Origin: Alphaproteobacteria bacterium
GTDB taxonomy: Bacteria > Pseudomonadota > Alphaproteobacteria > SP197
DNA: 33,431 nucleotides
NCBI GenBank assembly: GCA_016869675.1
Contig: VGDP01000033.1
Location: 1-33,431, forward strand
Reading direction: 5' to 3'
The notes beneath the pieces are model-generated. The model saw nothing but the letters and a program-made list of their open reading frames with translations. It was not told the origin of the DNA and ran no database searches. Both the position numbers and the translations under genes were made by a program. The first letter of the stretch is position 1. Every line of letters begins with the position of its first letter. Positions 3,135-18,368 of this stretch are shown piece by piece.

Positions 3135-3482
3135 CTAATGCTTGAGCATCCAGGGATGATGCGCGTGATGGGTATGGGCCTTGTGTGGTTCGGCGGTCTG
3201 GGCCGCTCGATCCCCGCGCGCGCGCATGAGATCGGCATGGGCGTCATGGCGTGGGATGTCATCGCCGCGACGCCGCCTGACGACGCGCGGTTCGTTTGCG
3301 CTTTTTTCGTTAACCGCATGTGCATTCCTCTGGCCCGAGTCCATGCCTAGTGCGGGCATTACAACGGCTCGTCTAGAGGACCGACCACAGTCGGGGCACG
3401 GGGCTGGCCGTCGGTAGGCGCTCATGCTTCGCCAGGCCCTGAAAGGACCGCACGTCTCACACTCGTAATCGTAGAGCGGCAT
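3135..3482 (-). CDS. fmdB: FmdB-family zinc-ribbon protein
   Basis: This 115-residue protein begins MPLYDYECETCGPF and has C8/C11 and C29/C32 pairs (CETC, CPDC). That is the FmdB/CxxC_CxxC_SSSS zinc ribbon named after the formamidase regulatory gene of Methylophilus. The family function is not well defined; it may act in regulation or in metal handling for the amidase. The C-terminus is unusually rich in histidine (HKAHTHHAHH), which could bind metal. It lies downstream of fmdA on the same strand, separated by 197 bases that hold a terminator-like hairpin, so its expression probably depends on read-through or a local promoter. Confidence 0.8.
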   Translation of the reverse strand: MPLYDYECETCGPFRAWRSMSAYRRPAPCPDCGRSSRRAVVMPALGMDSGQRNAHAVNEKSANEPRVVRRRRGDDIPRHDAHADLMRARGDRAAQTAEPHKAHTHHAHHPWMLKH

Positions 3483-3679: not shown

Positions 3680-4912
3680 TTACCGCGCGCGCGCAAGATC
3701 CGCCTTAGACGAGTCGACTTGCTTCTTCGGCCCCGCGGCATTCGGGTGGATATCGAATTCGAACATGTCGGTGGGAATGGCCACGGACACACAAGCATTC
3801 GGGATGTCAACGACACCACCGATACGCGCCTCGACCGGCGCGCAGCCGAGGATCACATAGGCCTGCTCTTTCGAGTACCCGAAGCGACTCAGGTACTCGA
3901 TCGCATTCATACACGCCCGTCGCATCGCCATAGTGGCGTCGTTATAGAGCTGCTTCCCGGACTTGTCGTCGACGCTGATACCCTCGAACGCAAGGAAGTC
4001 GCCATAGTGTGGATCGACGGGGCTGATCTTGAACAGCGGGTTCGTCAAACCATACTTGCCGACACCCCCCTTGATGATATCAACGTGCAGGTGAATCCAT
4101 CCCGCCATCTCGATCGCACCACAGAAGGTGATCTCGCCATCACCTTGTGAGAAGTGGTAGTCGCCCATTGAGAGTTTGGCGCCCTTCACATAGACGGGGA
4201 AGTAAATGCGGCTGCCGCGCGAGATGTTTTTGATGTCGCAGTTGCCGCCATGCTCGCGAGGCGGGATTGTCCTGGCGGCTTCCTTGGCCGCCTTCTTGAG
4301 GTCCGCGCCCTTGAGGGTTCCGAGCAGCACGCCTTCGGGTTCCGGCGGCAACGCGAAAGGTGGTACGCGGTCCGGATTCGTCGCGATGAGCGCCGCTTCT
4401 CGTTTGTTCCACTCGGCCAGCAACTTGTGACTAGGCGCGCAGCCGATAAGGCCGGGGTGCGTGATTGCCGCGAAACGCACTTTCGGAATATGGCGCGACG
4501 AGGCGTAGATACCCTTGCAATCCCAAATCGCCTTGCGTGGTTCCGGGAACAGATCGGTCAGGAAGCCGCCTCCGTTCGCGGTCTTGAAAATGCCGGTGTA
4601 GCCCCACTCGTTGCCCCGCAGCGGACCGATGTCGAGGATATCGACAACCAGAATGTCGCCGGGCTCGGCTCCCTTGACCTCGATCGGACCAACGAGGTGA
4701 TGACAGGGTGGCAGGTAGCAGTCCCTAATGTCGGCAGCGTTGTCGTCATTCTTGATCTGCCCGCCGGTCCAGTCGAGCGCCTCGATGATGAAATCATCTC
4801 CGGGCTTGACGCTGACAACGGGCGGAATGTCTGGGTGCCAACGGTTGTGCTGGGGCTGGGCCTGTTGGGTCGCCTTCTTCTTGATATCCACGGAAATGAG
4901 AGTCTTGGCCAT
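3680..4912 (-). CDS. fmdA: Formamidase (acetamidase/formamidase family)
   Basis: This 410-residue cytoplasmic enzyme is predicted to hydrolyse formamide, and possibly other short amides, to the acid and ammonium. It matches FmdA of Methylophilus in length and sequence throughout. Examples are the N-terminal HNRWHPDIPPVVSVKPGD, the DWTGGQIKNDD region, and LMGDYHFSQGDGE-like and EMAGWIHLHVDI segments. Family members are metal-dependent homotrimers or hexamers. The start at 4912 follows GAGGAGGGC, and the gene begins 18 bases after the urtE stop, so it is the last tightly coupled gene of the importer operon. No truncation or odd residue was noted. Confidence 0.93.
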   Translation of the reverse strand: MAKTLISVDIKKKATQQAQPQHNRWHPDIPPVVSVKPGDDFIIEALDWTGGQIKNDDNAADIRDCYLPPCHHLVGPIEVKGAEPGDILVVDILDIGPLRGNEWGYTGIFKTANGGGFLTDLFPEPRKAIWDCKGIYASSRHIPKVRFAAITHPGLIGCAPSHKLLAEWNKREAALIATNPDRVPPFALPPEPEGVLLGTLKGADLKKAAKEAARTIPPREHGGNCDIKNISRGSRIYFPVYVKGAKLSMGDYHFSQGDGEITFCGAIEMAGWIHLHVDIIKGGVGKYGLTNPLFKISPVDPHYGDFLAFEGISVDDKSGKQLYNDATMAMRRACMNAIEYLSRFGYSKEQAYVILGCAPVEARIGGVVDIPNACVSVAIPTDMFEFDIHPNAAGPKKQVDSSKADLARAR

Positions 4913-4930: not shown

Positions 4931-5626
4931 CTAGACTTGTAGATGTTTCCTGACGACGTCGTCGCTCAATTCTCCGATCGGTCCCGTCGCGACGATATGG
5001 CCGGTGTCAAGAATCGCGAACCTCCGCGCCACATCGCGGACGACGTCGAGCCGCTGCTCGACGAGAAGAATGGCGCAGTTATGCTCACTGCCAATACGTT
5101 TGATGATCTCCTGGATTTCGGCGACGACGGAGGGTTGCAAACCCTCGGTTGGCTCATCCATCAACAGGAGTCTCGGTTCTTGGACCAGCGCGCGCGCGAT
5201 CGCCAGCTGCTGCTGCTGCCCGCCCGACAAGACACCGCCCTTGCGCCCAGTTAGCGATCGAAGTGCCGGGAAGTATTCATAGACCACGTCCGGAATGCGC
5301 CTCGACTTGCCGACGCCCAGGAGGGCCAACTCGAGATTCTCCGAAACGGTCAGGTCCGAAATGATCTGCCGGCCCTGAGGCACATAGCTAATGCCCCGCC
5401 TCGTTCGAAGATGCGACGCAAGTTTACTGATCGTCTTGCCATCGAACTCGATTCTGCCCAAGCGCGGCAGCCTCTCGCCCGTGATGCTGCGCAAAAGAGT
5501 TGTCTTGCCCGCGCCATTACGCCCGAGGACCGAAACCATCTCACCGGCGTCTACCTCGATGGAAACCTCATGGAGTATGTGGCTCGTGCCGTAGTACGTA
5601 TCTATCCCGCTGACGCGAAGCATCAC
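4931..5626 (-). CDS. urtE: Amide/urea ABC importer, ATP-binding protein (UrtE/LivF type)
   Basis: This 231-residue ATPase has Walker A GRNGAGKTT, a Q-loop in YVPQGRQI, the signature LSGGQQQQLAIARAL, Walker B LLLMDEPTEG and an H-loop position in which LVEQ replaces the usual histidine. That is normal for the LivF/UrtE class. Its ATG overlaps the urtD stop (ATGA), so the two are translationally coupled. It should pair with UrtD on the inner membrane to drive uptake through UrtB and UrtC. The linked formamidase suggests amides as cargo, although urea is equally possible given the nearby urease. Confidence 0.9.
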   Translation of the reverse strand: MMLRVSGIDTYYGTSHILHEVSIEVDAGEMVSVLGRNGAGKTTLLRSITGERLPRLGRIEFDGKTISKLASHLRTRRGISYVPQGRQIISDLTVSENLELALLGVGKSRRIPDVVYEYFPALRSLTGRKGGVLSGGQQQQLAIARALVQEPRLLLMDEPTEGLQPSVVAEIQEIIKRIGSEHNCAILLVEQRLDVVRDVARRFAILDTGHIVATGPIGELSDDVVRKHLQV

Positions 5627-6363
5627 GCGTGACCCTTGCCCAGGTAAACGGCGCGCACGGTTTCGTTGTCGACCACCTCATCGAGCGACCCCTCCGCCAG
5701 AACTTGACCCTGGTGAAGGACCGTAACCTTCTTGGCAAGTTGCCTGACGATGTGCATGTCGTGCTCGACGAGAAGGACGGTATGGCTGCGCGCGATCCGT
5801 TGGATCAATTGTGCGGTCTTCTGCTTGCCTTGTTCGGTCATGCCCGTCGTTGGTTCGTCGAGGAGAAGGAGCTTGGGACGCGAGGCGATCAGCATCGCGA
5901 GTTCCAGCCACTGACGTTCGCCGTGGGACAATGTGTCAGCCGGTTCGCCCGCACGGTCGGCAAGTTCCACGAACTCGAGAATCTCCCAAATGCGATCGTC
6001 GTCCTCTCGCGTCACGCGTTTCAGCATGTAGCGGAACACTCTGCGCGCGCTTTGAAGCGAGACCATCACGTTGTCGTAAACGGAAAGGGTCTCGTACATG
6101 TTGGGCACTTGAAACTTGCGACTGATGCCGGCCAGGAAGATTTCGTCTGGAGCTCGGCCCGTGATATCGCGACCATCGAAAACGATCCGACCAGACGTCG
6201 GCTTGTACTGGCCAGTGATGAGAGAGATGAGCGTTGTCTTTCCGGCCCCATTCGGTCCGAGGAGAACACGAAGCTCGTGCTCGTCCACGGCGAAATCAAG
6301 ATTATCCAGGATCGTGAACCCCGAAACTCTGGTAGTGAGTCCCTTGACCTCGAGCAGCGCCAT
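5623..6363 (-). CDS. urtD: Amide/urea ABC importer, ATP-binding protein (UrtD/LivG type)
   Basis: This 246-residue ATPase has Walker A GPNGAGKTT, a Q-loop in ISRKFQVPNMYETLSVYDNV, the signature LSHGERQWLELAM, Walker B LLLLDEPTTGMT and switch histidine LLVEHDM. The MTEQ after Walker B and the KFQVP stretch are typical of UrtD rather than of generic LivG. The gene sits between urtC (20-base gap) and urtE (4-base overlap). Confidence 0.9.
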   Translation of the reverse strand: MALLEVKGLTTRVSGFTILDNLDFAVDEHELRVLLGPNGAGKTTLISLITGQYKPTSGRIVFDGRDITGRAPDEIFLAGISRKFQVPNMYETLSVYDNVMVSLQSARRVFRYMLKRVTREDDDRIWEILEFVELADRAGEPADTLSHGERQWLELAMLIASRPKLLLLDEPTTGMTEQGKQKTAQLIQRIARSHTVLLVEHDMHIVRQLAKKVTVLHQGQVLAEGSLDEVVDNETVRAVYLGKGHA

Positions 6364-6383
6364 GGCTCGCTTACACCTCGTCG

Positions 6384-7562
6384 CTACACTGGGTCATTTC
6401 GGCTACCGGGTTCACTCGATGGGCGCCAGTCGTGCTGGCGATCCTTCTCGAGTCTGTCTTGCTCTTCGCGGATCTCAGCTGGCGCACCGCGCCGACGAGC
6501 CCGGTACCAGTTTAGGAGCGTGCCCACGATTCCATCACGCATGACGAGCACCACGAGGATGAACAGGGCGCCCATGAAGAACTGCCAATAGTTGGCCAGC
6601 CAGCTGCCACTGAGCAGGAACTCGAGGCCACGCACCAAAAAGGTACCAATGAAGGGCCCGATCAGCGTAGCGCGGCCCCCGACCGCCGTCCAGATTACCG
6701 CTTCGATCGAAAACCTGGGACCAGTATCACCAGGAGAGATGATCCCGACCCACGCGGCGTACAGGGCCCCAGCAAGGGCCGCGAGGAAGGCCGAGACGCA
6801 GAACACGAAGATACGATAGTTCGCGACATTGTAGCCCATGAACTCGGCTCGCACGTCATTGTCGCGAACTGACTTCAACACTGTTCCGATGCGTGAATGG
6901 GTGAGCAGCCTCGCGCCAAAAAAACACAGTGCCGTCAGGACGACCAGGAACCACAAAAATTGCGCCGTGCGGGTGTTGCCATAGTCGGTCACGCCATTGA
7001 ACCCGCCCGTGTAGGCTTGGTACTCGATCAGGAATTGCTCGAGAATCAGCGCCTCCGCCAACGTAATGACCGCGCAATAGACGCCATAGATATGGCGCTT
7101 GAACGTGATTACGCCGAAGATAAATGCAAGCAGCGTCGGGATCGCCAAGGCGAGCGCGATCGCAATCGGTGTGCTGAGCAAGGGTTCCATGAACCCCGGC
7201 ACTTCGGTTAATCCATTCCAAACCATGAAGTCGGGAATCGTGCCGCCGTAACGCGTCGAATTCTCGATGGTATAGTTGAGCTTCATGGACAGAGCGATCG
7301 TGTACGCCCCGATTCCGAAATAGACGGCCTGGCCCAGGCTGAGGATGCCTGTGAAGCCCCAAATGAGATCAACACTCAATGCAAAAATCGAGAAGCAGAG
7401 AAACTTGCCGATGAGCTGTAGAACATAGCTATCGGTGCCTCCCACGACCGGAAACGCGGAGATCGCTGCAGCGACGAGGGCTCCGACGACCAGGACCGAT
7501 CGCGGCAGAAGGCGAGAACGTCTGACTTTGCGTTCTCCGGCGCTACGCGCCTGGGTTGCCAT
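6384..7562 (-). CDS. urtC: Amide/urea ABC importer, permease (UrtC/LivM type)
   Basis: This 392-residue polytopic membrane protein has about nine or ten hydrophobic segments and the LivM/UrtC signature DLIWGFTGILSLGQAVYFGIG. The cytoplasmic loop for ATPase contact is SVRDNDVRAEFMGYNVANYR. The ATG at 7562 follows GAGGGACGG; an in-frame GTG at 7586 lacks a good site. An unusually long charged C-tail follows the last segment (RARRRGAPAEIREEQDRLEK). It is the second membrane subunit, paired with UrtB. Confidence 0.9.
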   Translation of the reverse strand: MATQARSAGERKVRRSRLLPRSVLVVGALVAAAISAFPVVGGTDSYVLQLIGKFLCFSIFALSVDLIWGFTGILSLGQAVYFGIGAYTIALSMKLNYTIENSTRYGGTIPDFMVWNGLTEVPGFMEPLLSTPIAIALALAIPTLLAFIFGVITFKRHIYGVYCAVITLAEALILEQFLIEYQAYTGGFNGVTDYGNTRTAQFLWFLVVLTALCFFGARLLTHSRIGTVLKSVRDNDVRAEFMGYNVANYRIFVFCVSAFLAALAGALYAAWVGIISPGDTGPRFSIEAVIWTAVGGRATLIGPFIGTFLVRGLEFLLSGSWLANYWQFFMGALFILVVLVMRDGIVGTLLNWYRARRRGAPAEIREEQDRLEKDRQHDWRPSSEPGSRNDPV

Positions 7563-7627
7563 GGACCGTCCCTCGATCGACTTCACGGGTTACGTCGTTG
7601 TGTTTCAGCGTGCCCCCCTGAACCTGG

Positions 7628-8506
7628 TTAGCGTCGCTCGTGATATCCGAAAATTCCCCGCGGAAACACGCGTATGGCGATGACGATGGCCACAAAGACC
7701 AGAAGCTGACCGATGACCGTGTTGTACCGGAAGGCCAACAAAGTCTCTCCCTCGCCGATCAAGAAAGCACCGACGGGAATGCCGAGCAGATTGCCGACGC
7801 CGCCTAGCACAATGACCATGTAGGAACTGACCGCATAGGTGAATCCCATATCGAACGTCGCAGCCTTGATCGGCGCGAGGACGGCGCCCGCGACGCCCGC
7901 CAAGCCAGATCCATACATGAAAATCAGCATGTCGATCTTCGCGGTATCGACACCCATGCAGCCGGAGATCGCCCGGTTGCGCCGCACCGCGCGCACCTTC
8001 AGGCCGAAGTTCGTCTTGTAGAGGAGATAGAAGGTGAGGCCCATGATCGCCGCGGCCAGCACGATGTGGAACACGCGGTAATAGGGATAGTGTGGCGGAC
8101 GCGCGAACAGCTTGATGTTCCCGTCCAGCAAATCAGGCCAGTCGACCTTGAGTCCAAGCGGCCCGAAGATCAACCGAGCCGCGACCTCGAGTATGATGGC
8201 CACACCCCATGTTGCGAGCAGTGTCTCCAACGGTCGATCATAGATCCATCTGATCACGCCACGCTCGACGGCGAGCCCAAGGAGGGCAACCACGACAAAG
8301 GCTAGGGGCATCGCCATGAACATGTCGCCACCAAGCTTGTTCACGACGGCAGCCGTGTACGCTCCCACCATGATGAACGTGCCATGCGCCATATTGATGA
8401 CGCCCGCCACGCCGAAGATGATTGCTAGGCCCGACGTGGCAATGACCAGGATGGCAGCCACCCCAAGGCCGTTCAGAATTTGAAGTGCGAACTGATTCCA
8501 TATCAT
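7628..8506 (-). CDS. urtB: Amide/urea ABC importer, permease (UrtB/LivH type)
   Basis: This membrane protein of 292 residues begins MIWNQFALQILNGLGVAAIL, the usual UrtB/LivH start. It carries the signature GVINMAHGTFIMVGAYTAA and the ATPase-contact loop LKVRAVRRNRAISGCMGVD. An in-frame ATG at 8530 would add eight residues, but the shorter start fits the family. Neither start has a strong ribosome site. A 252-base gap separates it from urtA, longer than elsewhere in the operon. The gap shows no convincing gene and may allow separate tuning of binding-protein and permease levels. Confidence 0.88.
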   Translation of the reverse strand: MIWNQFALQILNGLGVAAILVIATSGLAIIFGVAGVINMAHGTFIMVGAYTAAVVNKLGGDMFMAMPLAFVVVALLGLAVERGVIRWIYDRPLETLLATWGVAIILEVAARLIFGPLGLKVDWPDLLDGNIKLFARPPHYPYYRVFHIVLAAAIMGLTFYLLYKTNFGLKVRAVRRNRAISGCMGVDTAKIDMLIFMYGSGLAGVAGAVLAPIKAATFDMGFTYAVSSYMVIVLGGVGNLLGIPVGAFLIGEGETLLAFRYNTVIGQLLVFVAIVIAIRVFPRGIFGYHERR

Positions 8507-8758
8507 GCGTGCGTTATCCCGCGAACCCATCGACTTGGCTGGTGTCGACCCAGCTGGACCGCGGCGCTCCCAATTGGATCCCGCGTTTGACTTGCAATTC
8601 GTCCTGTCTCATTGACGGGAATATCCCCGGCACCGCCAACGCAACCAACTGTTTCGAAAGCTCTCAGGGCGGACGTCTACGCGCAATTCCGGGTCATCCG
8701 CCCAATTTTGGTTTCGATCACGTTGCTCTTGTCAGCGATGCCGGGGGGTGGCCTTCCC

Positions 8759-10075
8759 TTAGATGTCCATCGTGCCGGAGCGGTTCTTCTCCTCGCTCCA
8801 GGGCTTCTTGAGTCGCTCAAGCACTTCCGGACTCGTGAAGTCGCAGTCCTTGTTGGGATAGAGGTAGTCCACCCATGGGTCTGGACGTATGCGTTCCGGG
8901 GATGTCCAGACGATATCGAACTGCCCGTCGTCGCGCGCGCGCGCGATACGTGCCCACAGATGCGTGTGGTGGTTTTTCTCGTCGATCTTCACCGGTCCCT
9001 GCGGCGCGGTGAACTCCTGCCCGGGTAAGCCGTCGAAGATCAGGGCATCGGCTTCTGTGCTCTGTGTCTTTTCGATTGCCTGAGCAAGCAGGTACGTCTG
9101 GAAGTATGCAGCCTCCATGACGGCGTTCGTAACTTCGTTCGCGCCAAACTTCGCCTTGTAGCGCTCAACGAACGATGCGTTCTCGGGCGTGTCGACGGTT
9201 TGGAAGTAGTTGAATGACGTGTAGTGACCCGCCGCGTTCTCCGGACCCATTGCCGCGGTTTCCTGCTCGGTCGTGATCGGCGTGCAAATCGGCACATCCT
9301 CGGGGGTGAATCCGAACTGCCTGAACTGCTTGTAGAACGCTACGATGGAATCGCCCACCAACGTCGAGAAGACATAGTCCGCGCCGCTATTGGCGATATT
9401 GTTGATGACGGTCGAGAACTCCGTATGCCCGAGCGGCGCGTATTCCTCACCAACATTCTCCGCCCCGGAAATTTCGAGCAAAGCCTTCCACTCTCGGTTA
9501 GTCTCCTTGGGATAAATGTAGTTGGAGCCGATCATGTAGCATTTTTTACGGCCGAGTTCCCTGACGATCCAAGGCTCGAAGTCGTCAAGCTGCTGATTTG
9601 GCACGGCGCCTGTGTAGAAGCAATTCTTGCTGCATTCCTGCGCCTCGTAGAGCGTCGGATACAGCAGCACGCCGTTGTACTCCTCGAACACAGGCAGCAC
9701 CGACTGACGGCTAGCGGACGTGTAACATCCTAGCACCGCCACGACCTGATCGTTAAGCAAAAGCTTTTTTGCCTTCTCTGCAAAGATCGGCGGTTGTGAC
9801 TGCGGATCTTCGATGACTGGTTCAATCATCTTGCCCATGATACCGCCATTCGCGTTGATCTCCTCGATCGCAAGACGCTCGGCGTTATGGAGCGAAGTCT
9901 CGATGATCGCGATGGTGCCACTCAATGAATGCAGAATGCCGACCTTGATGGTACCGCCGTCTTGAGCCTTGGCTATGTTCCTCGAGAACACATACGGCGC
10001 GCCGCCGCCAACGGCGATGGCGCCTAGCGTGCTCACCGAGTTCTTTAGAAACGTGCGTCGCTTTTGACCCTTCAT
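8759..10075 (-). CDS. urtA: Amide/urea ABC importer, periplasmic binding protein (UrtA/FmdD type)
   Basis: The 438-residue protein starts at the ATG at 10073-10075 behind AGGAGG, not at the upstream in-frame codon at 10114, which lies inside the terminator. It begins with a Tat-like leader (KRRTFLKNS, then a hydrophobic run and AKAQDGG). The mature part is a type I periplasmic binding fold with the UrtA/AmiC/FmdD landmarks GILHSLSGTIAIIE, GCYTSASRQSVLPV, LLYPTLYEAQECS and GSNYIYPKETNRE. It should capture amide or urea for UrtBC. It is a clear paralogue of the cytoplasmic AmiC-like sensor encoded two genes upstream. Expression is gated by the leader at 10102-10189. Confidence 0.9.
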   Translation of the reverse strand: MKGQKRRTFLKNSVSTLGAIAVGGGAPYVFSRNIAKAQDGGTIKVGILHSLSGTIAIIETSLHNAERLAIEEINANGGIMGKMIEPVIEDPQSQPPIFAEKAKKLLLNDQVVAVLGCYTSASRQSVLPVFEEYNGVLLYPTLYEAQECSKNCFYTGAVPNQQLDDFEPWIVRELGRKKCYMIGSNYIYPKETNREWKALLEISGAENVGEEYAPLGHTEFSTVINNIANSGADYVFSTLVGDSIVAFYKQFRQFGFTPEDVPICTPITTEQETAAMGPENAAGHYTSFNYFQTVDTPENASFVERYKAKFGANEVTNAVMEAAYFQTYLLAQAIEKTQSTEADALIFDGLPGQEFTAPQGPVKIDEKNHHTHLWARIARARDDGQFDIVWTSPERIRPDPWVDYLYPNKDCDFTSPEVLERLKKPWSEEKNRSGTMDI

Positions 10076-10101
10076 GATGTCAACCTCCTGGCACGAAGCC
10101 C

Positions 10102-10153
10102 AAAAAAAACACAAAGCCCCGCGCCTTCTCGATTCCGAGAAAACGCGGGGCTT
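10102..10153 (-). terminator. Intrinsic terminator in the urtA leader (attenuator)
   Basis: The stem is a perfect 10-base pair (AAGCCCCGCG at 10153-10144 with CGCGGGGCTT at 10123-10114). An inner hairpin TTCTCG/CGAGAA forms in the loop. After the stem come UUGUG and a run of eight U (10109-10102). The urtA ribosome site AGGAGG begins about 20 bases later. This is a strong terminator in front of a gene rather than behind one, the mark of attenuation control. Confidence 0.9.
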
Positions 10154-10189
10154 CGTTGCCCGTTTATTTTTAACGGCACCACTGCCGCC
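10102..10189 (-). promoter_or_regulatory. ANTAR antitermination leader: two hexaloop hairpins overlapping a terminator
   Basis: Read on the minus strand right after the second ANTAR gene, hairpin P1 has stem CGGC/GCCG (184-187 with 174-177 of the 10 kb block) and loop AGUGGU. Hairpin P2 has stem GGGC/GCCC (10158-10161 with 10148-10151) and loop AACGAA. Both loops have A at position 1 and G at position 4, the rule for RNA targets of ANTAR proteins such as EutV, NasR and AmiR. A 12-base A/U-rich linker joins them. The 3' arm of P2 is also part of the 5' arm of the following terminator, so the structures exclude one another. Bound ANTAR protein should stabilise P1-P2 and let transcription enter urtA. 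Confidence 0.85.
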
Positions 10190-10203
10190 TCTCGTTTGAA
10201 CTC

Positions 10204-10899
10204 CTAGGAGCCCCGGATAACCGGAATGACCTCTCCAACCCCTAAAACGCCATCCGCATCGACCACGCCCGACGCTACCATATTGATCGTGACCTTCTTG
10301 CGCATTGCCTGCTCGCGAAGGAAGGCATACGCCTCAGGTTCCTCGATCTTTCCACGCGTCATCAGGATCGTCTTGGCTTGCTCTACCTTCCGTGCCGCCT
10401 TGAGCACCTCGTCGAGCTTGGCGGCCTTGTCCCGCAGCCGACGTCGGTATCCAAAAGTTTGGCAGGCCACGACGACGCTTGTCAACATGGCTTGCAGGGC
10501 CACGGGCTTGGTTATGACCGCGACGGGGCGGGCCTCGAGCAAGAGAGGCATCCAATGGACGTCGCCGGGATCGACTATGCAGATGAGGGCGGCCCTGCCT
10601 TCTTCGGCAATACGCGCGGACAGCGCGCGCGTCTCTGGAACGATCGAACACACCGCGACGTCGACCGCGTGCGGTAGTCCAGAATCGGGCGGCCAGAACT
10701 GAGTGATGCTAACGCCAAGCCGCCCGACCTCACACCAAAGATCCGCCAACTCTTCATCGGGAGGGTGACTGACGAGCAGCTCAAGTCCTTCCAACTGGTC
10801 CAGGAGATCCCTCACTGCTCCATAGGGCTCTGGGCGGGCTGCGCCAGGATGCGTCACGGTCGCTACCGCGCCGACGCGATCGCCCTCATGCTCGGTCAT
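10204..10899 (-). CDS. amiR: ANTAR-domain antiterminator, AmiR-like (second copy)
   Basis: This protein of 231 residues has an N-terminal pseudo-receiver region, a coiled-coil linker (LRDKAAKLDEVLKAARKVEQ) and a C-terminal ANTAR three-helix RNA-binding domain (EQAKTILMTRGKIEEPEAYA, then FLREQAMRKK). The start at 10899 is one base past the amiC stop. A longer in-frame opening to 11016 lies inside amiC and is rejected. In Pseudomonas, AmiC holds AmiR inactive until amide binds; the same pairing is likely here. The gene is immediately followed by the hexaloop leader that it, or its relative at 12268-12849, should bind. Confidence 0.9.
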   Translation of the reverse strand: MTEHEGDRVGAVATVTHPGAARPEPYGAVRDLLDQLEGLELLVSHPPDEELADLWCEVGRLGVSITQFWPPDSGLPHAVDVAVCSIVPETRALSARIAEEGRAALICIVDPGDVHWMPLLLEARPVAVITKPVALQAMLTSVVVACQTFGYRRRLRDKAAKLDEVLKAARKVEQAKTILMTRGKIEEPEAYAFLREQAMRKKVTINMVASGVVDADGVLGVGEVIPVIRGS

Positions 10900-10900
10900 T

Positions 10901-12022
10901 TCAGTGGCTGACCAGATAGGGATCGGGACGCACAGGCAACATCGACTCGCGCACCACATCGAACTGGCCCATCGCGTTGACCCGTCCGACGCGGGTCCAA
11001 AGGCTCGTGTGGCCATTGTCGGCGTCTATGGAGACGAGCCCCTGGGGCGCCTCGTACTCGCTACTTAGAACAACCGGCTTCAGAACATCAGGATTCATGG
11101 TGTCCACCTCCGCCAGGGATCTAGCAAAAATGTGGATCTGAAAGTATGCCGCCTCGACACAAAGGTTCGTCCTCTGATCATCGCCAAAGCGGCGATTGTA
11201 TCGTCGCACGAACGCGGCGTTACGGTCCGTCCTGACGCTCTCGAAGTAAGGCGCCGCCGTGATGTGTCCACGCGCCGCGTCGACGGTCATCAGACTGACC
11301 TCAGCCTCCGACGTAGTAAGGCTGGCGATCGGCATCGTGCGAGGATCAAATCCGGCCTCCGCATAGGCCTGGTAGAGGAACGCTGTCGACTCACCCACAA
11401 CCGTCGAAAACACCACATCCGGTCGATTGTTGCGCAAGTCGCGCATAAGTAAGCGAAACTCCGATCGCCGTGCGCCCAGATCGAGGTAATGCTCGCCAAG
11501 CGCCTTTCCACGACGCTGGCGCAAAAGTTCTCGCATGATTCTGTTTGACTCGCGGGGGTAAATGTAGTCAGACCCCACGAGGTAAAAGCGGGAACCATAG
11601 GTTTCAAGCATGTAATCGACGAGCGCAACGATGTTCTGGTTGGGCGCGGCGCCCGTGTAGATTACATTGGGCGAATATTCAAAGCCCTCGTAAAGCGTCG
11701 GATACCACAACAGGCCATTATGGCGCTCGACGATGGGCACCACCGCCTTTCGGCTACTGGAGGTATAGCAGCCGAAAATTGAACTTACGCCATCCTCGGT
11801 CAACAGCTTGCTGGCGTAACGCGCGAAGGCGTGCACATCTGAACCAGGATCGTAACACACGGGTTCGATCTCCCGTCCGTTCACGCCCCCCGAAGCGTTG
11901 ACTTCCTCGATCGCCAGGATTGTGCCCTGCAATTGGGTCTCTTCGATCACCGCCGTGACGCCACTGCGCGAGAATAGGACCCCGATTCGCCAAGGTTCGG
12001 TACCGCCAGTGCGTTTCACCAT
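10901..12022 (-). CDS. amiC: AmiC-like cytoplasmic amide sensor
   Basis: This 373-residue protein has a type I periplasmic-binding fold but no signal peptide, as in Pseudomonas AmiC (about 385 residues). AmiC senses amides and controls AmiR by direct binding. Landmarks include GVLFSRSGVTAVIEETQLQG, GCYTSSSRKAVVPI, LLWYPTLYEGFEYSPN and GSDYIYPRESNR, all parallel to the UrtA sequence in this cluster. The ATG at 12022 follows GGAGGTGGCC. It is sandwiched between two ANTAR genes, with one base separating it from the second. Its ligand should be the imported substrate: formamide, acetamide or urea. Confidence 0.9.
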   Translation of the reverse strand: MVKRTGGTEPWRIGVLFSRSGVTAVIEETQLQGTILAIEEVNASGGVNGREIEPVCYDPGSDVHAFARYASKLLTEDGVSSIFGCYTSSSRKAVVPIVERHNGLLWYPTLYEGFEYSPNVIYTGAAPNQNIVALVDYMLETYGSRFYLVGSDYIYPRESNRIMRELLRQRRGKALGEHYLDLGARRSEFRLLMRDLRNNRPDVVFSTVVGESTAFLYQAYAEAGFDPRTMPIASLTTSEAEVSLMTVDAARGHITAAPYFESVRTDRNAAFVRRYNRRFGDDQRTNLCVEAAYFQIHIFARSLAEVDTMNPDVLKPVVLSSEYEAPQGLVSIDADNGHTSLWTRVGRVNAMGQFDVVRESMLPVRPDPYLVSH

Positions 12023-12055
12023 GAGGCCACCTCCACCGCGGTCCTTTCGACTTGT

Positions 12056-12271
12056 CTACGTCACTCGCCAGCCGGTCTCGCGCACAGCCTGGCGCCACAT
12101 CGGCTGTGGGCCCGCACCGCCGTGGGGGACCACCGAACCAAAACAAGGGATCTCGCGCGACACGCCAGCCGGACCGTGTGGATCGCCGTCGCCCATGATC
12201 GAATTGATCCGCCACCCCGAAGCACCGGCTGGCATATCCCGCGATGAATTGCATGGCACAGAGAACCTCAT
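12056..12271 (-). CDS. Small ORF of unknown function between two regulator genes
   Basis: This 71-codon frame starts with an ATG that overlaps the stop of the first ANTAR gene (ATGA) and ends 33 bases before the amiC start. That spacing fits a translated operon gene. The product (MRFSVPCNSSRDMPAGASGW and onward) is rich in glycine and proline and resembles nothing I know. It may be only the translated path through a spacer, or a remnant. The 245-base gap between the two regulator genes holds nothing else I can identify. Confidence 0.35.
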   Translation of the reverse strand: MRFSVPCNSSRDMPAGASGWRINSIMGDGDPHGPAGVSREIPCFGSVVPHGGAGPQPMWRQAVRETGWRVT

Positions 12272-12849
12272 CCTCGATCATCGGCACTGAGAAGCACATC
12301 GTGTGATTCAACGACGATAGACGCGATCGCGCCGATGGCCATGCGGCGGCGCATCGCTTCGTCGCGCAGGAAGCCATAGGCCTCGGGTTCGCCTATGTTT
12401 CGACGCTCCATGAGGATGGCCTTGGCTTGTTGCACCTTCTTATAGGCTCGCAGTGTTTCTTCGAGTTTGCGGACCTTTCCAAGCTGGCGCTGAAGGCAGC
12501 CCAAGTTGCCGTATGCAATCAGCAGGCTGGGCGCTAAAGCCAACGGATTGACGGGATGACATAGGACCCCATGCGGCGCCGATTGACGCAACGACTTGAC
12601 GGTTTCAGGGACTTGCGGGTCCACGATGCCGACCACCGCGACGTCGCTACGCGCGATCACAGCATTGACTAGCTGTCGCGCGCACGAATCTAACAAGCAC
12701 ATCAGCACATCAGCATTCTCTGCCAGCGCCGCCGGCGGAGGCCAAACCATCTCAACTCGCCGGACGAGCCTGCGCACATGACGCGCGATATGCTCGCCAG
12801 GTTCACCTTGCGGATGGACCAGGACCAGGTAGAGCTGCCGCAAGTTCAT
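12268..12849 (-). CDS. amiR: ANTAR-domain antiterminator, AmiR-like (first copy)
   Basis: With the ATG at 12849 (MNLRQLYLVLVHPQGEPGEH) the protein is 193 residues, close to Pseudomonas AmiR (196). It has a pseudo-receiver half, a linker helix (QRQLGKVRKLEETLRAYKKV) and an ANTAR domain (QQAKAILMERRNIGEPEAYG, FLRDEAMRRR). The ATG overlaps the stop of a short upstream ORF (ATGA), which supports this start over in-frame codons at 12873 and 12999. It is the first regulator gene of the leftward operon. Two ANTAR genes for one visible sensor is unusual; the copies may form a heterodimer or answer different signals. Confidence 0.87.
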   Translation of the reverse strand: MNLRQLYLVLVHPQGEPGEHIARHVRRLVRRVEMVWPPPAALAENADVLMCLLDSCARQLVNAVIARSDVAVVGIVDPQVPETVKSLRQSAPHGVLCHPVNPLALAPSLLIAYGNLGCLQRQLGKVRKLEETLRAYKKVQQAKAILMERRNIGEPEAYGFLRDEAMRRRMAIGAIASIVVESHDVLLSADDRG

Positions 12850-12977
12850 AGGACCTGACCTGTCCCGAACCATGACCCAGCTGAACAACGAACGGGAGCG
12901 GCAGGGTCGCGCACAAACATCAATGCGCGGAACAACGACGCACACGGCAAACGGGAAGTCCCTGTTTCTGCCATCAT
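12846..12977 (-). CDS. Possible 43-residue leader peptide coupled to the first ANTAR gene
   Basis: A GGGGAGGTGTG ribosome site, the best in the region, precedes an ATG at 12977 opening a 43-codon frame. The frame reads MMAETGTSRLPCASLFRALM at its start. Its TGA overlaps the ATG of the ANTAR gene. No family resemblance was seen. The strong site and the ATGA junction suggest translation coupled to the regulator, but a chance frame in front of a differently started amiR is possible. Confidence 0.35.
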   Translation of the reverse strand: MMAETGTSRLPCASLFRALMFVRDPAAPVRCSAGSWFGTGQVL

Positions 12978-13098
12978 GGTTCACACCTCCCCGAACCACC
13001 GGCAGCCCTAGATCGCCCGTCTCACCTTAGCCACGAACCCAAGTCCCATCAGCGACGAGGCTCGCTTCGCTGATCCTGCAAGACGTAACGACAACCCT

Positions 13099-13239
13099 TC
13101 ACTGCCGATATGTATATAGTATGCGGACGCCGCATCTTCGCGCAGCTTCGCAAACTATCGTAGATGACATCCCGTGAAGGATCAATGCCAACCCTACCGC
13201 CTTGAGCTTAAATTCACGCGTGAACTTCCTTCGCTGCAT
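13099..13239 (-). pseudogene. IS3-type OrfA N-terminal relic in the regulator/urease intergenic region
   Basis: An ATG at 13239 behind GGGGGAGAG opens MQRRKFTREFKLKAV, the usual start of IS3-family OrfA helix-turn-helix proteins. The likeness ends after about 15 residues and the frame stops at 46 codons. A near-perfect inverted repeat ATGCGG-ACG-CCGCAT (13121-13135) lies inside. It appears to be a scar of an insertion in the divergent control region. The rest of 12978-13531 shows no gene. Confidence 0.45.
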
Positions 13240-13354
13240 ACTCTCCCCCGGGTTCCAATAAACACCCTAGCTCGGCGTCCACGGAACCGGCAGCAGCTCA
13301 CATCGTGGGATCGCAAAATTAGTTTGGGGTCCTGAACGCCCTATGCTTCCCTAA

Positions 13355-13372
13355 TTGGCGTGCAAGTGGCAT
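13355..13372 (+). promoter_or_regulatory. Weak sigma-54-type promoter candidate upstream of ureF
   Basis: TTGGCGTGCAAGTGGCAT has the two fixed dinucleotides of the sigma-54 consensus, GG and GC, ten bases apart (13357-13358 and 13369-13370). Three of the other consensus positions do not match. Nitrogen-scavenging operons are often under sigma-54/NtrC, which is the only other support. Confidence 0.2.
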
Positions 13373-13531
13373 CGGGACGCGCTCATTGGGAAAGATCGAG
13401 AGTATCGTCATCTCAGACCAGCGACCCAGCCCTCGCCTCGCTAGCGGGTCTGCCAATTCATGATCGCGGGTCCAGGTGAGATCTTTCATCCCCTTCGTGG
13501 TGTCCTTTCCGCACCACTCTGGGAGGCCGGG

Positions 13532-14200
13532 GTGCCTGATCTCCTACGGGTGCTCCAGCATGGCGACAGCTTCTTCCCATCAGGCGGTGTCGCCTTCTCG
13601 CTCGGACTCGAAACCCTGAAGGAAGACGGCGTAGTCAAAGATGCAGTGGGCATCGAGCGCTTGATCACATCTCATCTGCGTCAACGGTGGGCTTCCACCG
13701 ACCGATCATTCGTCGCGAACGCGCATCGTGCGAAGGATCTTGACGAAGCCCGGGGCTTGGACTCGCTGCTCGACGCGATGACCCTGCCGCGAGAGCTGCG
13801 CGAGGGCTCGCGGCGAAACGGCGGGGCGCTGCTGCGTGTGATGGCCGCCCTGGGGGGATCTCACGCGGCCGGGTACCGTGAGCTCGTTCTAGCGGAACGC
13901 GCTCCTGGCCACCTCGCCGTCGTGCAGGGTCTTGTCTACAGCGAACGCGGCCTCAGCATTGACGAGTCACTGGCGGTAGCGGGCCACGGTCTCGTCGTCG
14001 GGATGCTTGCCGCCGCGCTTCGGCTCGGCATGATTGGACATGTTGCCGCGCAAGCGTCACTTACACGGCTGCACGATGTCCTGGCAGAAATCTTGGGCTC
14101 TCCACTGCTCGGAATCAATGAAGTACACGCCTTCACCCCGCTTGCCGAGATCGCGGTGATGCGTCACGAAGCGGGAGATAGTCGCCTATTTGCGAACTAG
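13532..14200 (+). CDS. ureF: Urease accessory protein UreF
   Basis: UreF binds UreD and UreG on apo-urease and helps deliver nickel. The protein shows the family opening [20 protein letters not shown] followed by [13 protein letters not shown], and a C-terminal [17 protein letters not shown] segment like the PLPEIAS region of UreF. The GTG at 13532 follows GGGAGG and gives 222 residues, the usual UreF size. An in-frame ATG at 13460 gives 246 residues but has no clear ribosome site. It is the first gene of the rightward urease set and lies 20 bases before ureAB. Placement of ureF first, before the structural genes, is uncommon. Confidence 0.87.
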
Positions 14201-14220
14201 CTGAACTCAGGGAGGACGAG

Positions 14221-14919
14221 ATGCTCCTTACCCCGACCGAAGTCGAAAGGCTCTTGATCTTCAGCGCTGCGGAACTGGCGCGCAAGCGCCGTGCGCGGGG
14301 AAAGAAACTCAATCACCCCGAGGCGATCGCGCTCATTTCCGATGAAATTCTCGAAGGTGCGCGTGATGGTCGCTCGGTCGCGGAGTTGATCAGTGCCGGC
14401 GCCACGATCCTCGACGACGATGACGTGATGCCGGGGGTCGCGGAGATGACGACAATGATTCAGGTCGAGGCCACGTTCCCCGACGGCACCAAGCTCGTCA
14501 CAGTCCACAACCCAATCCGTTCCGGCAAGAGCAAGCGCAATAAGGATCGCCTAGTGCCCGGAGAAATTATCACAGACGACGGGGAAATCGAACTGAATGT
14601 GGGCCGCGCCCGAGCGCACGTCAGGGTGACGAACACGGGCGACCGGCCGGTTCAAGTCGGCAGCCACTATCACTTCTTCGAGGTGAACAAACATCTCGAC
14701 TTCGCGCGCGAAGCGGCGTTCGGCATGCATCTCGATATTCCTGCGGGCACTGCACTGCGTTTTGAACCGGGCGACACGAAGGAGATTTCGCTCGTGGCGT
14801 TCGGCGGCACTGGCGAGATATTCGGCCTCAACAACCTTACCTCCGGGACCATCAGGGGGAAGTCAGCCAAGACAGCGGCGCTCAAGCGCGCGCGCAAGGC
14901 GGGCTTCAAGGGAGCGTAA
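14221..14919 (+). CDS. ureA: Fused urease gamma-beta subunit (UreAB)
   Basis: One 232-residue chain joins UreA (gamma, about 1-100) and UreB (beta, about 115-225). The gamma half has [40 protein letters not shown] and a DVMPGVAEM stretch. The beta half has [14 protein letters not shown] and [20 protein letters not shown] followed by [18 protein letters not shown]. Such fusions are known in Helicobacter UreA and in some actinobacterial and proteobacterial second ureases. With UreC it forms the urease core that splits urea to ammonia and carbamate. The start follows GGGAGGACGAG. The stop is one base before the ureC ATG. Confidence 0.93.
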
Positions 14920-14920
14920 G

Positions 14921-16633
14921 ATGGCCACGATCACACGCCGGCACTACGCCGCTCTCTACGGTCCCACCAAAGGGGATGCCGTCCGTCTCGGCGACACCGA
15001 ATTGTTTGCCGAGATTGAACACGATCACGCGGTCCCGGGCGATGAGTGTTTGCACGGCGGGGGCAAGACCCTTCGCGATGGCGCCGGCCTTGTCACGGGT
15101 CTCACATCCCGACAGGGCGCGCTCGACATGCTGGTGTCGAACGTCGTGGTGATCGACCCAAAGGTCGGCATCGTGAAAGGCGACATCGGCATCAAGGACG
15201 GCAAGGTCGTCGCCATCGGCAAGGCCGGCAATCCGGCCATCATGGACGGCGTCGATCCCCGGCTGCTGGTTGGCGCCTCGACGACCGTTCGTGACGCCGA
15301 GGGCCTGATAGCGACGCCAGGCGGCCTCGACTGCCATGTCCATTTCGATTCGGCGCAGCTATGCGAACACGCGCTTGCGTCCGGCATAACCACCATGCTC
15401 GGTGGCTCGCTGGGGCCGATCACCGTGGGCATCGATTCCGGGGGACCGTTCAACGTCGGCAAGATGCTTCAGGCTGCCGAGCAATGGCCGATCAATTTCG
15501 GCTTCCTCGGTCGCGGTAATTCGGCAAAGCCCGCATCCATTGTCGAGCAAGCCGAAACCGGGTGCTGCGGTATGAAGATCCACGAGGACTGGGGTGCGAT
15601 GCCGGCGGCGATCGACACCTGTCTGGCGGTGGCCGACGACATGGATTTTCAAGTCCAGCTCCACACCGACACGCTCAACGAGTCGGGCTTTCTCGAGGAG
15701 ACGCTTGCCGCGTTAAAGGGCCGAACGATCCATATGTATCACGCCGAGGGGGCCGGCGGTGGCCATGCGCCGGACATCATACGCGTCTCCGGCGAGGCCA
15801 ACTGTCTGCCGTCCTCGACCAACCCGACTAATCCGTACACTGTGAACACGTTCGACGAGCACCTGGACATGATCATGGTGTGCCATCACCTCAATCCGGC
15901 CGTGCCGGAGGATGTGGCGTTCGCCGAGAGTCGAATCCGCGCCGAGACGATCGCAGCCGAGGATGTTCTCCACGATATCGGCGCCATTTCGATGTTGGGC
16001 TCCGACAGCCAGGGCATGGGGCGAATCAACGAGGTGATCTGTCGCACTTGGCAGCTTGCTTCGAAGATGAAGGGGCTTCGCGGCCGGCTCGCCGGCGAAA
16101 CGACGAAGCGAGGCGACAACGAGCGCATCAAGCGCTACATCGCGAAGTACACGATCAATCCCGCGATCACCTTTGGGATCGACCGCTACGTCGGCTCGAT
16201 CGAGTCAGGCAAGCTCGCGGATATCGTGCTCTGGAGACCGGCCTTCTTCGGCATCAAGCCAGAGCTCACCATCAAGGGCGGCTTCATCGTTTCATCGGCG
16301 ATGGGCGATTCGGCCGCTTCGCTGATGACGTGCGAGCCGCTGGCGATCCGCCCTCAGTGGGGCGCGTTCGGCAGTGCCAAGAAACACTTGGCTGTTTCGT
16401 TCGTTACAAAGGCTGCGATCGAGAAGGGGCTGGGCCGGAAGCTCGGGCTCGTCAAGCGGCTCGTCGCCGTGAAGGGCACTCGCAAGCTGAGAAAGAAACA
16501 CATGCTGCACAACGCGGCTTGTCCGAGGATCACGGTCAACCCTGAGACGTTTGAGGTCTTCGTCGACGGCGAGCTCGCGACTTGCCCGCCCGCAAGGACG
16601 CTTCCGCTGACCCAGCGCTATATGCTTCGATAA
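14921..16633 (+). CDS. ureC: Urease alpha subunit (catalytic, UreC)
   Basis: This nickel enzyme of 570 residues has every active-site residue I could check: H139 and H141 (DCHVH), the carbamylated lysine K219 (GMKIHEDWG), H248, H274, flap C321-H322-H323 (MVCHHL) and D362 (LGSDSQ). The usual NASIPTPQP stretch near the C-terminus is replaced by AASLMTCEP, and GLKIHEDWG by GMKIHEDWG, so this is a divergent urease. The ATG at 14921 sits after AAGGGAGCG; longer in-frame openings from 14762 lie inside ureAB and are rejected. It follows the fused ureAB directly. Confidence 0.95.
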
Positions 16634-16703
16634 TGGGCGTTCATGGTTACCCGTCGCCGGAAGTAGCGATCGGCGCGGTCAAGGCCCTAGAATTTGGAGA
16701 GCG

Positions 16704-17369
16704 ATGATGGCGGATGTCGTATCGCGGATGGGCGTCCTGCCGCCCCCTGCTGCCAAGCGTGTAGGGCCAGCGCGCGTTGGAATCGGTGGCCCTGTCGGCT
16801 CGGGCAAAACCGCCCTGATTGAGACGCTCGTGCCGCGACTGTGCTCAGCGAGCTATGACGTCGCGGTAGTCACCAACGACATCGCGACACGGGAAGACGC
16901 CGAGCGGCTGCAGAGAGGCGGTCTGATCGCGGCGGAGCGCGTCATCGGGGTGGAGACCGGCGCCTGTCCACATACGGTGATCCGCGAGGACCCGACGCTC
17001 AACCTCGAAGCGGTCGACTCCTTGGAGCGGCGCTTCCCCGACTTGGACCTCGTGATCGTGGAATCAGGCGGCGATAACCTTGCCTCAACTTTCTCGCTCG
17101 ATCTTGTCGACTACTGGATGTTCGTCATCGACGTCGCTGGCGGCGGCGATATCCCGCGCAAGCGGGGTCCGGGTTTACTCCAGTGCGATCTCCTTGTCGT
17201 GAACAAGGTCGATCTGGCGCCTCACGTTCGGGTCGACCTCGAAGCGGTCAAACGCGATGTCGCTAAGGCGCGCGGCACAAAGCCCACGGCGTTTACAAAT
17301 TGCCTGACAGGCGAGGGGGTCGATGCAGTGATCGATCAACTTCGCCTCAATGTCTTCCTCGACATTTGA
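16704..17369 (+). CDS. ureG: Urease accessory GTPase UreG
   Basis: UreG is a SIMIBI-class GTPase that powers nickel insertion into urease. Visible motifs are the P-loop GPVGSGKT (29-36), the nickel-binding CPH (87-89) in [23 protein letters not shown], and the guanine-specificity NKVDLA. The protein is 221 residues with a short, non-histidine N-terminus, so it does not carry a built-in nickel store to replace the missing UreE. The ATG at 16704 follows GGAGAG. The 70-base gap after ureC shows no gene, and ureE is not found in its usual position. Confidence 0.94.
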
Positions 17370-17507
17370 TGTGGCGCCGGCTCGTCATTCCCGGAGCGTT
17401 GGTCGATCTCGCTCCGGCGCTCGTTTCTTCGTCGGATGCGTCCGTCACCGTGAACGTATGGCCTCGACGATCTATCCGGACGTACGACAGCGAAGTTCGA
17501 GTTCGGC

Positions 17508-18368
17508 ATGAATATCGGTGACGGCGCCGAAAGCTGGGTGCGAAGAGGCAGGATCAAGCTTCATTTCGCGCATGATGGCGCACGCACCAGCCTCGCACGA
17601 AACTTCGCCAGTTATCCGTTTCATGTAACCCGGCCCTTCTATTTCGACGCAGCCTGGCCGGACCTGCCGACTGTCGTGCTCCAATCGGCGTCGGGCGGTC
17701 TGTTTCAGGGAGACAGACTGTCGATTGAGATCTCCGTCGGAGAAGGCGCCTCCGTGCAGGTGACGTCGCAGTCGGCGATGAAGATCCATTCTATGGAACG
17801 CGATCACGCGGTCCAAGAAGCGCACCTCAAGATCGAGCGGAACGGTTATCTAGAAGTGATCGCGGATCCCGCCATCCTCTTTCCGGACAGCACCGTCGAG
17901 ACCATGACAATGATCGAACTCGATCAGGGTGCGAGCGCAATTCTCGCCGAATCATTTTTTTGGCACGATCCAAAGGGCGGCGTCGCGCCAAATTTTTCGT
18001 TGGCATCTACAGCGATCGAGGTGCGCGATAGCGCAGGCCGCCTTCTCATGAAAGACCGCTATCGTGTCACGCGACCCGATCCGGACCCGGCGACGACTGC
18101 AGATTGGCAAGCCATGAAGGGTCAGGGCACGGTCTATGTCTTGTGCCAGACACATTCCGGAGCTGCGCTCGTCGAAGGTTTGCGCTCTGCACTTGGAGGC
18201 TCTGGACATGGCTACGTCGGTGTTTCCGTGCTTCCAAATGAAGCGGGAGCGTTCGTGCGCGTTCTCGCGTCCGACGTCAACGTTATTCACAAGGTCCTGG
18301 CGCGCGCCTGTCGGGCAGCGCGGCGGCTCGTTGTTGGCCGCGACACGCGATTAACATGGCGCAAATAG
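17508..18368 (+). CDS. ureD: Urease accessory protein UreD (UreH)
   Basis: UreD is the scaffold that docks UreF-UreG on the urease core and carries nickel through an internal tunnel. The 286-residue sequence fits the family: ASYPFHVTRPFYFD, VVLQSASGGLFQGDRLSIEI, VTSQSAMKIHSM, IADPAILFPDSTVE and ILAESFFWHDPKGG. A 138-base gap after ureG holds no gene. The start is the first ATG of the frame with family likeness; its ribosome site is weak. Usually ureD comes first; here it is last. The gene ends at the border of the IS5-type fragment. Confidence 0.9.
   Translation: MNIGDGAESWVRRGRIKLHFAHDGARTSLARNFASYPFHVTRPFYFDAAWPDLPTVVLQSASGGLFQGDRLSIEISVGEGASVQVTSQSAMKIHSMERDHAVQEAHLKIERNGYLEVIADPAILFPDSTVETMTMIELDQGASAILAESFFWHDPKGGVAPNFSLASTAIEVRDSAGRLLMKDRYRVTRPDPDPATTADWQAMKGQGTVYVLCQTHSGAALVEGLRSALGGSGHGYVGVSVLPNEAGAFVRVLASDVNVIHKVLARACRAARRLVVGRDTRLTWRK

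Follow-up and report, generated by a model that had tools for sequence, protein, structure and literature searches.

A predicted ANTAR antitermination leader between AmiC-AmiR-type regulator genes and a putative amide importer operon in an alphaproteobacterial contig

In Enterococcus faecalis, the eutVW regulator genes come first, followed by an ANTAR gate and then by eutG. The underlying antitermination mechanism is known from the amiE, nasF, and eut leaders (PMC3369931, PMC3369936, PMC8934654), and several ANTAR systems resemble in part the locus described here, which lies in a 33,431-nt stretch of alphaproteobacterial DNA (hereafter, the window). The amiE leader of Pseudomonas aeruginosa shares with it an AmiC sensor, the ANTAR protein AmiR, two hexaloop hairpins that overlap a terminator, and a link to amide metabolism (PMC3369931, PMC3369936). 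In P. aeruginosa, however, the leader stands ahead of the amidase gene, with the regulators after it; in the window it follows amiR1, amiC, and amiR2, and its target is an importer together with an FmdA-type formamidase. Similarly, the nasTS-leader-nasABGHC locus of Paracoccus denitrificans has its sensor and ANTAR genes upstream and a gate of ~200 nt before the target (PMC5424462, PMC3795266), but its sensor is the nitrate sensor NasS instead of AmiC and the spacer between regulators and target is longer. The Paracoccus nasTS promoter is under NtrC (PMC5424462, PMC3795266), while sigma-54- and NtrC-like patterns in the window were no commoner than chance. The E. faecalis eut terminators (eutP, eutG, eutS, and eutA) are alike in their dual hexaloops with A1 and G4, in a P2 3′ arm common to the terminator, and in being interspersed in the operon (PMC3369931); they differ in that EutV is activated through phosphorylation by EutW, whereas the window AmiR is a pseudo-receiver protein acting with AmiC. 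The same gene order and element as in the window, with varying loops and gate number, occur in amiC-amiR-leader-urtABCDE loci of Bradyrhizobium, Rhizobium, Tistrella, and Rhodospirillales MAGs, and we found no description of this order in the part of the literature searched. The first-pass annotation of this DNA had set a mid-operon gate against the order in Pseudomonas ami; regulators followed by a gate and then by the target is not a new principle, since Paracoccus nasTS-nasA (PMC5424462) and E. faecalis eutG (PMC3369931) precede it. The window very likely holds a well-supported ANTAR antitermination leader that would work by a known mechanism, in an arrangement that we have not found described.

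Table 1. Coordinates of the leader elements and of the surrounding gene cluster in the window
Feature	Coordinates	Strand	Description
Whole leader, amiR2 stop to urtA start	10076..10203	-	from sequence
amiR2 stop codon	10206-10204	-	from sequence
P1 hairpin	10172..10189	-	GGCGGC/AGUGGU/GCCGUU; loop AGUGGU 10183-10178; six pairs, two of them G-U
P2 antiterminator hairpin	10148..10161	-	GGGC/AACGAA/GCCC; loop AACGAA 10157-10152
Intrinsic terminator	10102..10155	-	20-pair stem 10155-10112 and U8 tract 10109-10102
Ribosome-binding site AGGAGG	near 10090	-	from sequence
urtA ATG	10075	-	26 nt between U8 tract and ATG
amiR1	12268..12849	-	AmiR-like ANTAR protein, 193 aa; start codon picked via alignment with relatives
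amiC	10901..12022	-	AmiC-like amide sensor, cytoplasmic-type; no signal peptide seen
amiR2	10204..10899	-	AmiR-like ANTAR protein, 231 aa; start 1 nt past amiC stop
urtA	8759..10075	-	importer substrate-binding protein, Tat-type leader; Peripla_BP_5 4.3e-145
urtB, urtC, urtD, urtE	4931..8530	-	permeases and ATPases
fmdA	3680..4912	-	formamidase; NF045496 equivalog 676.8 bits, cut-off 500
fmdB-like zinc ribbon protein	3135..3482	-	Zn_ribbon_8; FmdB family TIGR02605

The regulators of this cluster (Table 1) belong to the AmiC-AmiR type. Both ANTAR proteins contain AmiR_N and ANTAR domains (1.6e-16 and 7.7e-14 in amiR1; 1.1e-14 and 1.8e-12 in amiR2), and for both the closest solved structure is the AmiR of 1qo0, the AmiC-AmiR complex (3.5e-13 for amiR1 against PDB chain D; 1.6e-15 for amiR2). 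The two are paralogues with 36% identity and account for all ANTAR domains in their own genome, exactly two, both encoded within the amiR1-urt gene cluster. In an AmiR tree, whose resolution is too poor for dating the amiR1/amiR2 split, amiR1 forms a long branch and clusters with the first AmiR of locus L034 (97/96). The idea that two ANTAR genes lie just upstream of the leader holds for amiR2, which adjoins it, and fails for amiR1, which is set apart by amiC. The top solved relative of the amiC product is Pseudomonas AmiC (1pea, 1.6e-94), with UrtA structures ranking behind, and its pocket residues resemble those of AmiC; an AmiC-type sensor thus adjoins an AmiR with a pseudo-receiver N-terminus and an ANTAR C-terminus, as in an AmiC-AmiR pair. 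EutV contacts RNA through Arg142, Lys147, Lys149, Glu160, Tyr164, Arg168, Met172, Asn173, and Arg177, with Tyr164 stacking on loop G4 (PMC8934654). Both AmiRs retain the counterparts of Lys149, Glu160, Tyr164, Arg168, and Met172, and both lack those of Arg142, Lys147, Asn173, and Arg177.

Judged from its sequence, the stretch between amiR2 and urtA is an AmiC-AmiR-type ANTAR antitermination leader with two hexaloops. The two hairpins that had been proposed from a first reading, with A1 and G4 in both loops and lying before and partly inside an intrinsic terminator, are borne out. The linker from the end of P1 to the start of P2 is 10 nt, inside the range of about 5-12 nt between the stems of E. 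faecalis eut leaders (PMC3369931). P2 and the terminator are mutually exclusive, as had also been claimed, because the P2 3′ arm (10151-10148) and four of its loop bases (10155-10152) belong to the terminator 5′ arm as well. The predicted fold of the leader, at -61.3 kcal/mol, is far more stable than those of shuffles (-39.7 ± 3.9 kcal/mol; z -5.55). Paired A1/G4 hairpins alone are ordinary (four in the window on both strands, against ~2 per strand in shuffles), but when a terminator that starts in P2 must follow the dual A1/G4 hairpins, the window has a single instance and 60 dinucleotide-shuffled windows have none. In the P1 loop of the window, RNAfold closes an A1-U6 pair that relatives are mostly unable to form. 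Rfam 15 gave no match at gathering score at the leader, where its matches were weak and sub-threshold.

Folding of successive prefixes of the transcript agrees with a switch between the two structures: P1 appears first and P2 second, and P2 persists in the optimal structure up to ~10120; once the transcript extends beyond this point, the terminator replaces it. The combination of P1 and the terminator (-46.7 kcal/mol) is ~11 kcal/mol better than that of P1, P2, and a residual stem (-35.3 kcal/mol), and therefore P2 must be stabilised by something in order to win. With P2 held, the terminator is left as a 12-pair residual stem, with the stretch GGGGCUUUGUG between the stem base and the U tract; such a separation of residual stem and U tract matches the model published for ANTAR leaders (PMC3369936).

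For the steps at which proteins would intervene, i.e., inducer release, RNA binding, and read-through, we draw on the AmiC-AmiR and EutV precedents. The polymerase probably starts ahead of amiR1 or of amiC, and the gate would then lie inside one operon. If no inducer is present, AmiC would keep AmiR inactive, and the polymerase would make P1 and briefly P2 before P2 is invaded by the terminator hairpin, ending transcription ahead of urtA. Binding of a small amide to AmiC, with formamide or acetamide the likeliest, would free AmiR, which may then bind the P1 and P2 loops and keep P2 long enough to shorten the terminator to the 12-pair hairpin whose base is parted from the U tract. The polymerase could then continue into the importer and formamidase genes.

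We next turn to the relatives of the leader. An AmiR alignment searched against genome contigs identified 78 loci, 51 of which have urtA next after amiR in the same orientation. We trained a covariance model (R1) on 14 leaders, that of the window among them, and it matches the gap between amiR and urtA in 50 of the 51 loci (E < 0.005). This figure is made up mostly of close Bradyrhizobium kin, and it counts the training sequences and near copies of them, which match by construction. Within the 50, R1 scores weakly in Rhizobiaceae, Tistrella, and L102 (E 7e-5 to 5e-3); a hexaloop P2 and a terminator are nevertheless visible by folding in Tistrella and Rhizobiaceae, including the one locus that R1 missed. 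Three further loci of betaproteobacterial type (L067-L069) have amiCR divergent from urt, with the element preceding urtA, and other Alphaproteobacteria gave weak R1 matches with E of about 1e-6 to 1e-4. Conservation of the hairpins in relatives, on which the initial proposal depended, is therefore found in both the amiR-urtA loci and the divergent ones. Within the 3.49 Mb genome of the window, the single strong copy is the leader itself (81.8 bits, E 2.5e-22), a score that is not independent since the leader belongs to the R1 training set; the next-best match falls on the opposite strand at this position (24.6 bits, E 3e-4); all others are at chance level.

Because a free MAFFT alignment displaces P2 in four sequences, each of the two hairpins was assessed on an alignment of its own. 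Among 14 relatives, 98.8% of the P1 cells are paired, with double changes at four of the six pairs; none of 500 shuffles was as high on paired cells, double-change cells, or covariation score, and P1 pairings slid out of register fail. RNAalifold, unprompted, recovers P1 and the terminator, and the latter also shows double changes among relatives. The P2 stem pairs are nearly invariant, so that covariation lends P2 no support beyond that of the terminator. A hexaloop P2 sits at the matching position in most relatives, and some of its loops deviate: they mostly carry A1 and G4, with G1 in the L035 leaders and in the first leader of genome G390, and A4 in several others. Outside the Bradyrhizobium/Hyphomicrobiales group, every distinct leader that we inspected carries A1 and G4 in its P1 loop, except for Tistrella, Rhizobiaceae, and the second of the tandem G390 leaders, in which inspection revealed no clean P1.

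The elements of the leader, their mutual exclusivity, conservation, and covariation, and the families of the regulators can all be read from the DNA, and we consider it highly likely that a cis-acting ANTAR antitermination leader controls urtABCDE-fmdAB. A strong terminator placed after the last regulator gene might instead simply close the amiCR transcript, the hairpins preceding it by chance; given that the combination was seen in none of the shuffled windows, that P1 covaries, and that the P1-P2-terminator order is kept in alpha- and betaproteobacterial loci, always before urtA, such a coincidence is extremely improbable. Where transcription through an antitermination leader of this kind begins is a separate matter. 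It is plausible from the gene layout that regulators and target share one transcript with no internal promoter: the 14 nt that separate P1 from the amiR2 stop, the 1-nt gap between amiC and amiR2, and a search of the minus strand (8500-13500) that gave no match to a sigma-70-like promoter are suggestive of this. That search used the E. coli consensus, which catches alphaproteobacterial promoters poorly, so that missing matches weigh little against a urt promoter within the 3′ end of amiR2, in which case the leader would work on a separate transcript and there would be no mid-operon gate. A promoter of its own must in fact serve the gated urt operon of the betaproteobacterial loci, which is divergent from amiCR, and the distance from the amiR stop to P1 reaches ~55-80 nt in L034, L035, L039, and L040. 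On the other side stand the short spacing in the window and the ~20 nt in Bradyrhizobium, together with four-fold sites near the end of Bradyrhizobium amiR that are not strongly constrained except in the last codons (5 sites), a diversity that does not settle whether a promoter lies there. We regard a separate urt promoter as somewhat unlikely and the single transcript as the preferred reading.

The inducer and the cargo could also be urea rather than an amide, with a urea importer beside a urease cluster and AmiC sensing urea. A complete-looking urease cluster (ureF, fused ureAB, ureC, ureG, and ureD; 13460-18365, plus strand) does lie divergent from the amide cluster, and by NCBIfam cut-offs UrtB, UrtC, and UrtE pass their urea-transporter models, with UrtD slightly under. 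However, urtE is followed by fmdA, a formamidase equivalog, and UrtA scores 450.6 bits against the urea model, under the cut-off of 492.75. Urea binding by Prochlorococcus UrtA needs Ser122, Gln144, Tyr190, and Asn246 (PMC10392092); the window UrtA keeps the Ser and the Tyr but has Leu142 in place of Gln144 and Val240 in place of Asn246, and the Val is invariant across 11 AmiC and UrtA-like proteins of amiR-urtA loci. Urea is thus an improbable signal and cargo, and the gene content and UrtA pocket favour formamide or another small amide. The initial assignment of AmiC/AmiR regulators with an amide importer as their target is well supported in this respect. UrtA-like proteins that lack both urea ligands may be misannotated as urea-binding, and the importers annotated as urea transporters in such loci are probably amide carriers. 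AmiC-AmiR control would be tied to an ABC importer and a formamidase in many soil Alphaproteobacteria, root-nodule bacteria included.

Several relatives have more than one gate. L034 has the order amiR1-leader-amiC-amiR2-leader-urtA (leaders at 4769-4855 and 6712-6801), and L035 (5461-5549 and 6682-6770) the same order plus a further amiC upstream; in the window, sequence inspection and R1 found no leader in the corresponding amiR1-amiC gap (12267-12023). The G390 locus (L139, minus strand) carries tandem leaders between amiR and urtA (6608-6516 and 6486-6392) and a third match (8778-8704) ~265 nt upstream of amiC. Tistrella and Rhizobiaceae have, just upstream of amiC, a terminator with a P2-like hexaloop (L070 4707-4790, L077 4739-4821, and L086 4735-4821), with the loop AGGGCA in L070 and AGGGUA in the related L072, L073, and L076. 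These pre-amiC elements are weak R1 matches (E 0.0015-0.004), and the regulators of Tistrella and some Rhizobiaceae may be gated too. The suggestion that a mid-operon gate keeps regulator levels constant consequently does not extend to a general rule, as ANTAR-like leaders stand before amiC in L034, L035, G390, Tistrella, and some Rhizobiaceae, and amiCR is divergent in the betaproteobacterial relatives.

Bradyrhizobium leaders (L041-L066; e.g., L043 6598-6705) have the P2 loop AACAAA, with A4, and P1 loops such as GACACA or GACAGC; an additional hairpin, CCCC-AAUAGC-GGGG, lies at their amiR stop codon. It is possible that the recognition rule has changed in these leaders. We tentatively propose, as a scenario that may well prove wrong, that ANTAR gates in amide operons have been duplicated and stacked so that one signal induces regulator and target stepwise, that the Bradyrhizobium loop rule has moved from G4 to A4, and that the window is a reduced form with two AmiR genes and one gate. 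Such a natural set of leaders, with single, double, and tandem gates and with both A1/G4 and altered loops, offers a testbed for the ANTAR recognition rule and for the P1-then-P2 model.

Some minor observations concern the surroundings of these loci. In Rhodopseudomonas sp. AAP120 (L071), the leader after amiR (6741-6821) is followed by an integrase-like gene (6956-8191) and not by urtA, an arrangement that suggests an insertion. Upstream of amiR1 in the window lies a 46-codon ORF (MQRRKFTREFKLKAV..., 13099-13239, minus strand), which gave no Pfam match and resembles the start of an IS3-type transposase OrfA. An Rfam match to the 5′ ureB sRNA (44.1 bits; 15124-15371, minus strand) is antisense to the urease alpha gene and probably just reflects conservation of the urease coding sequence.
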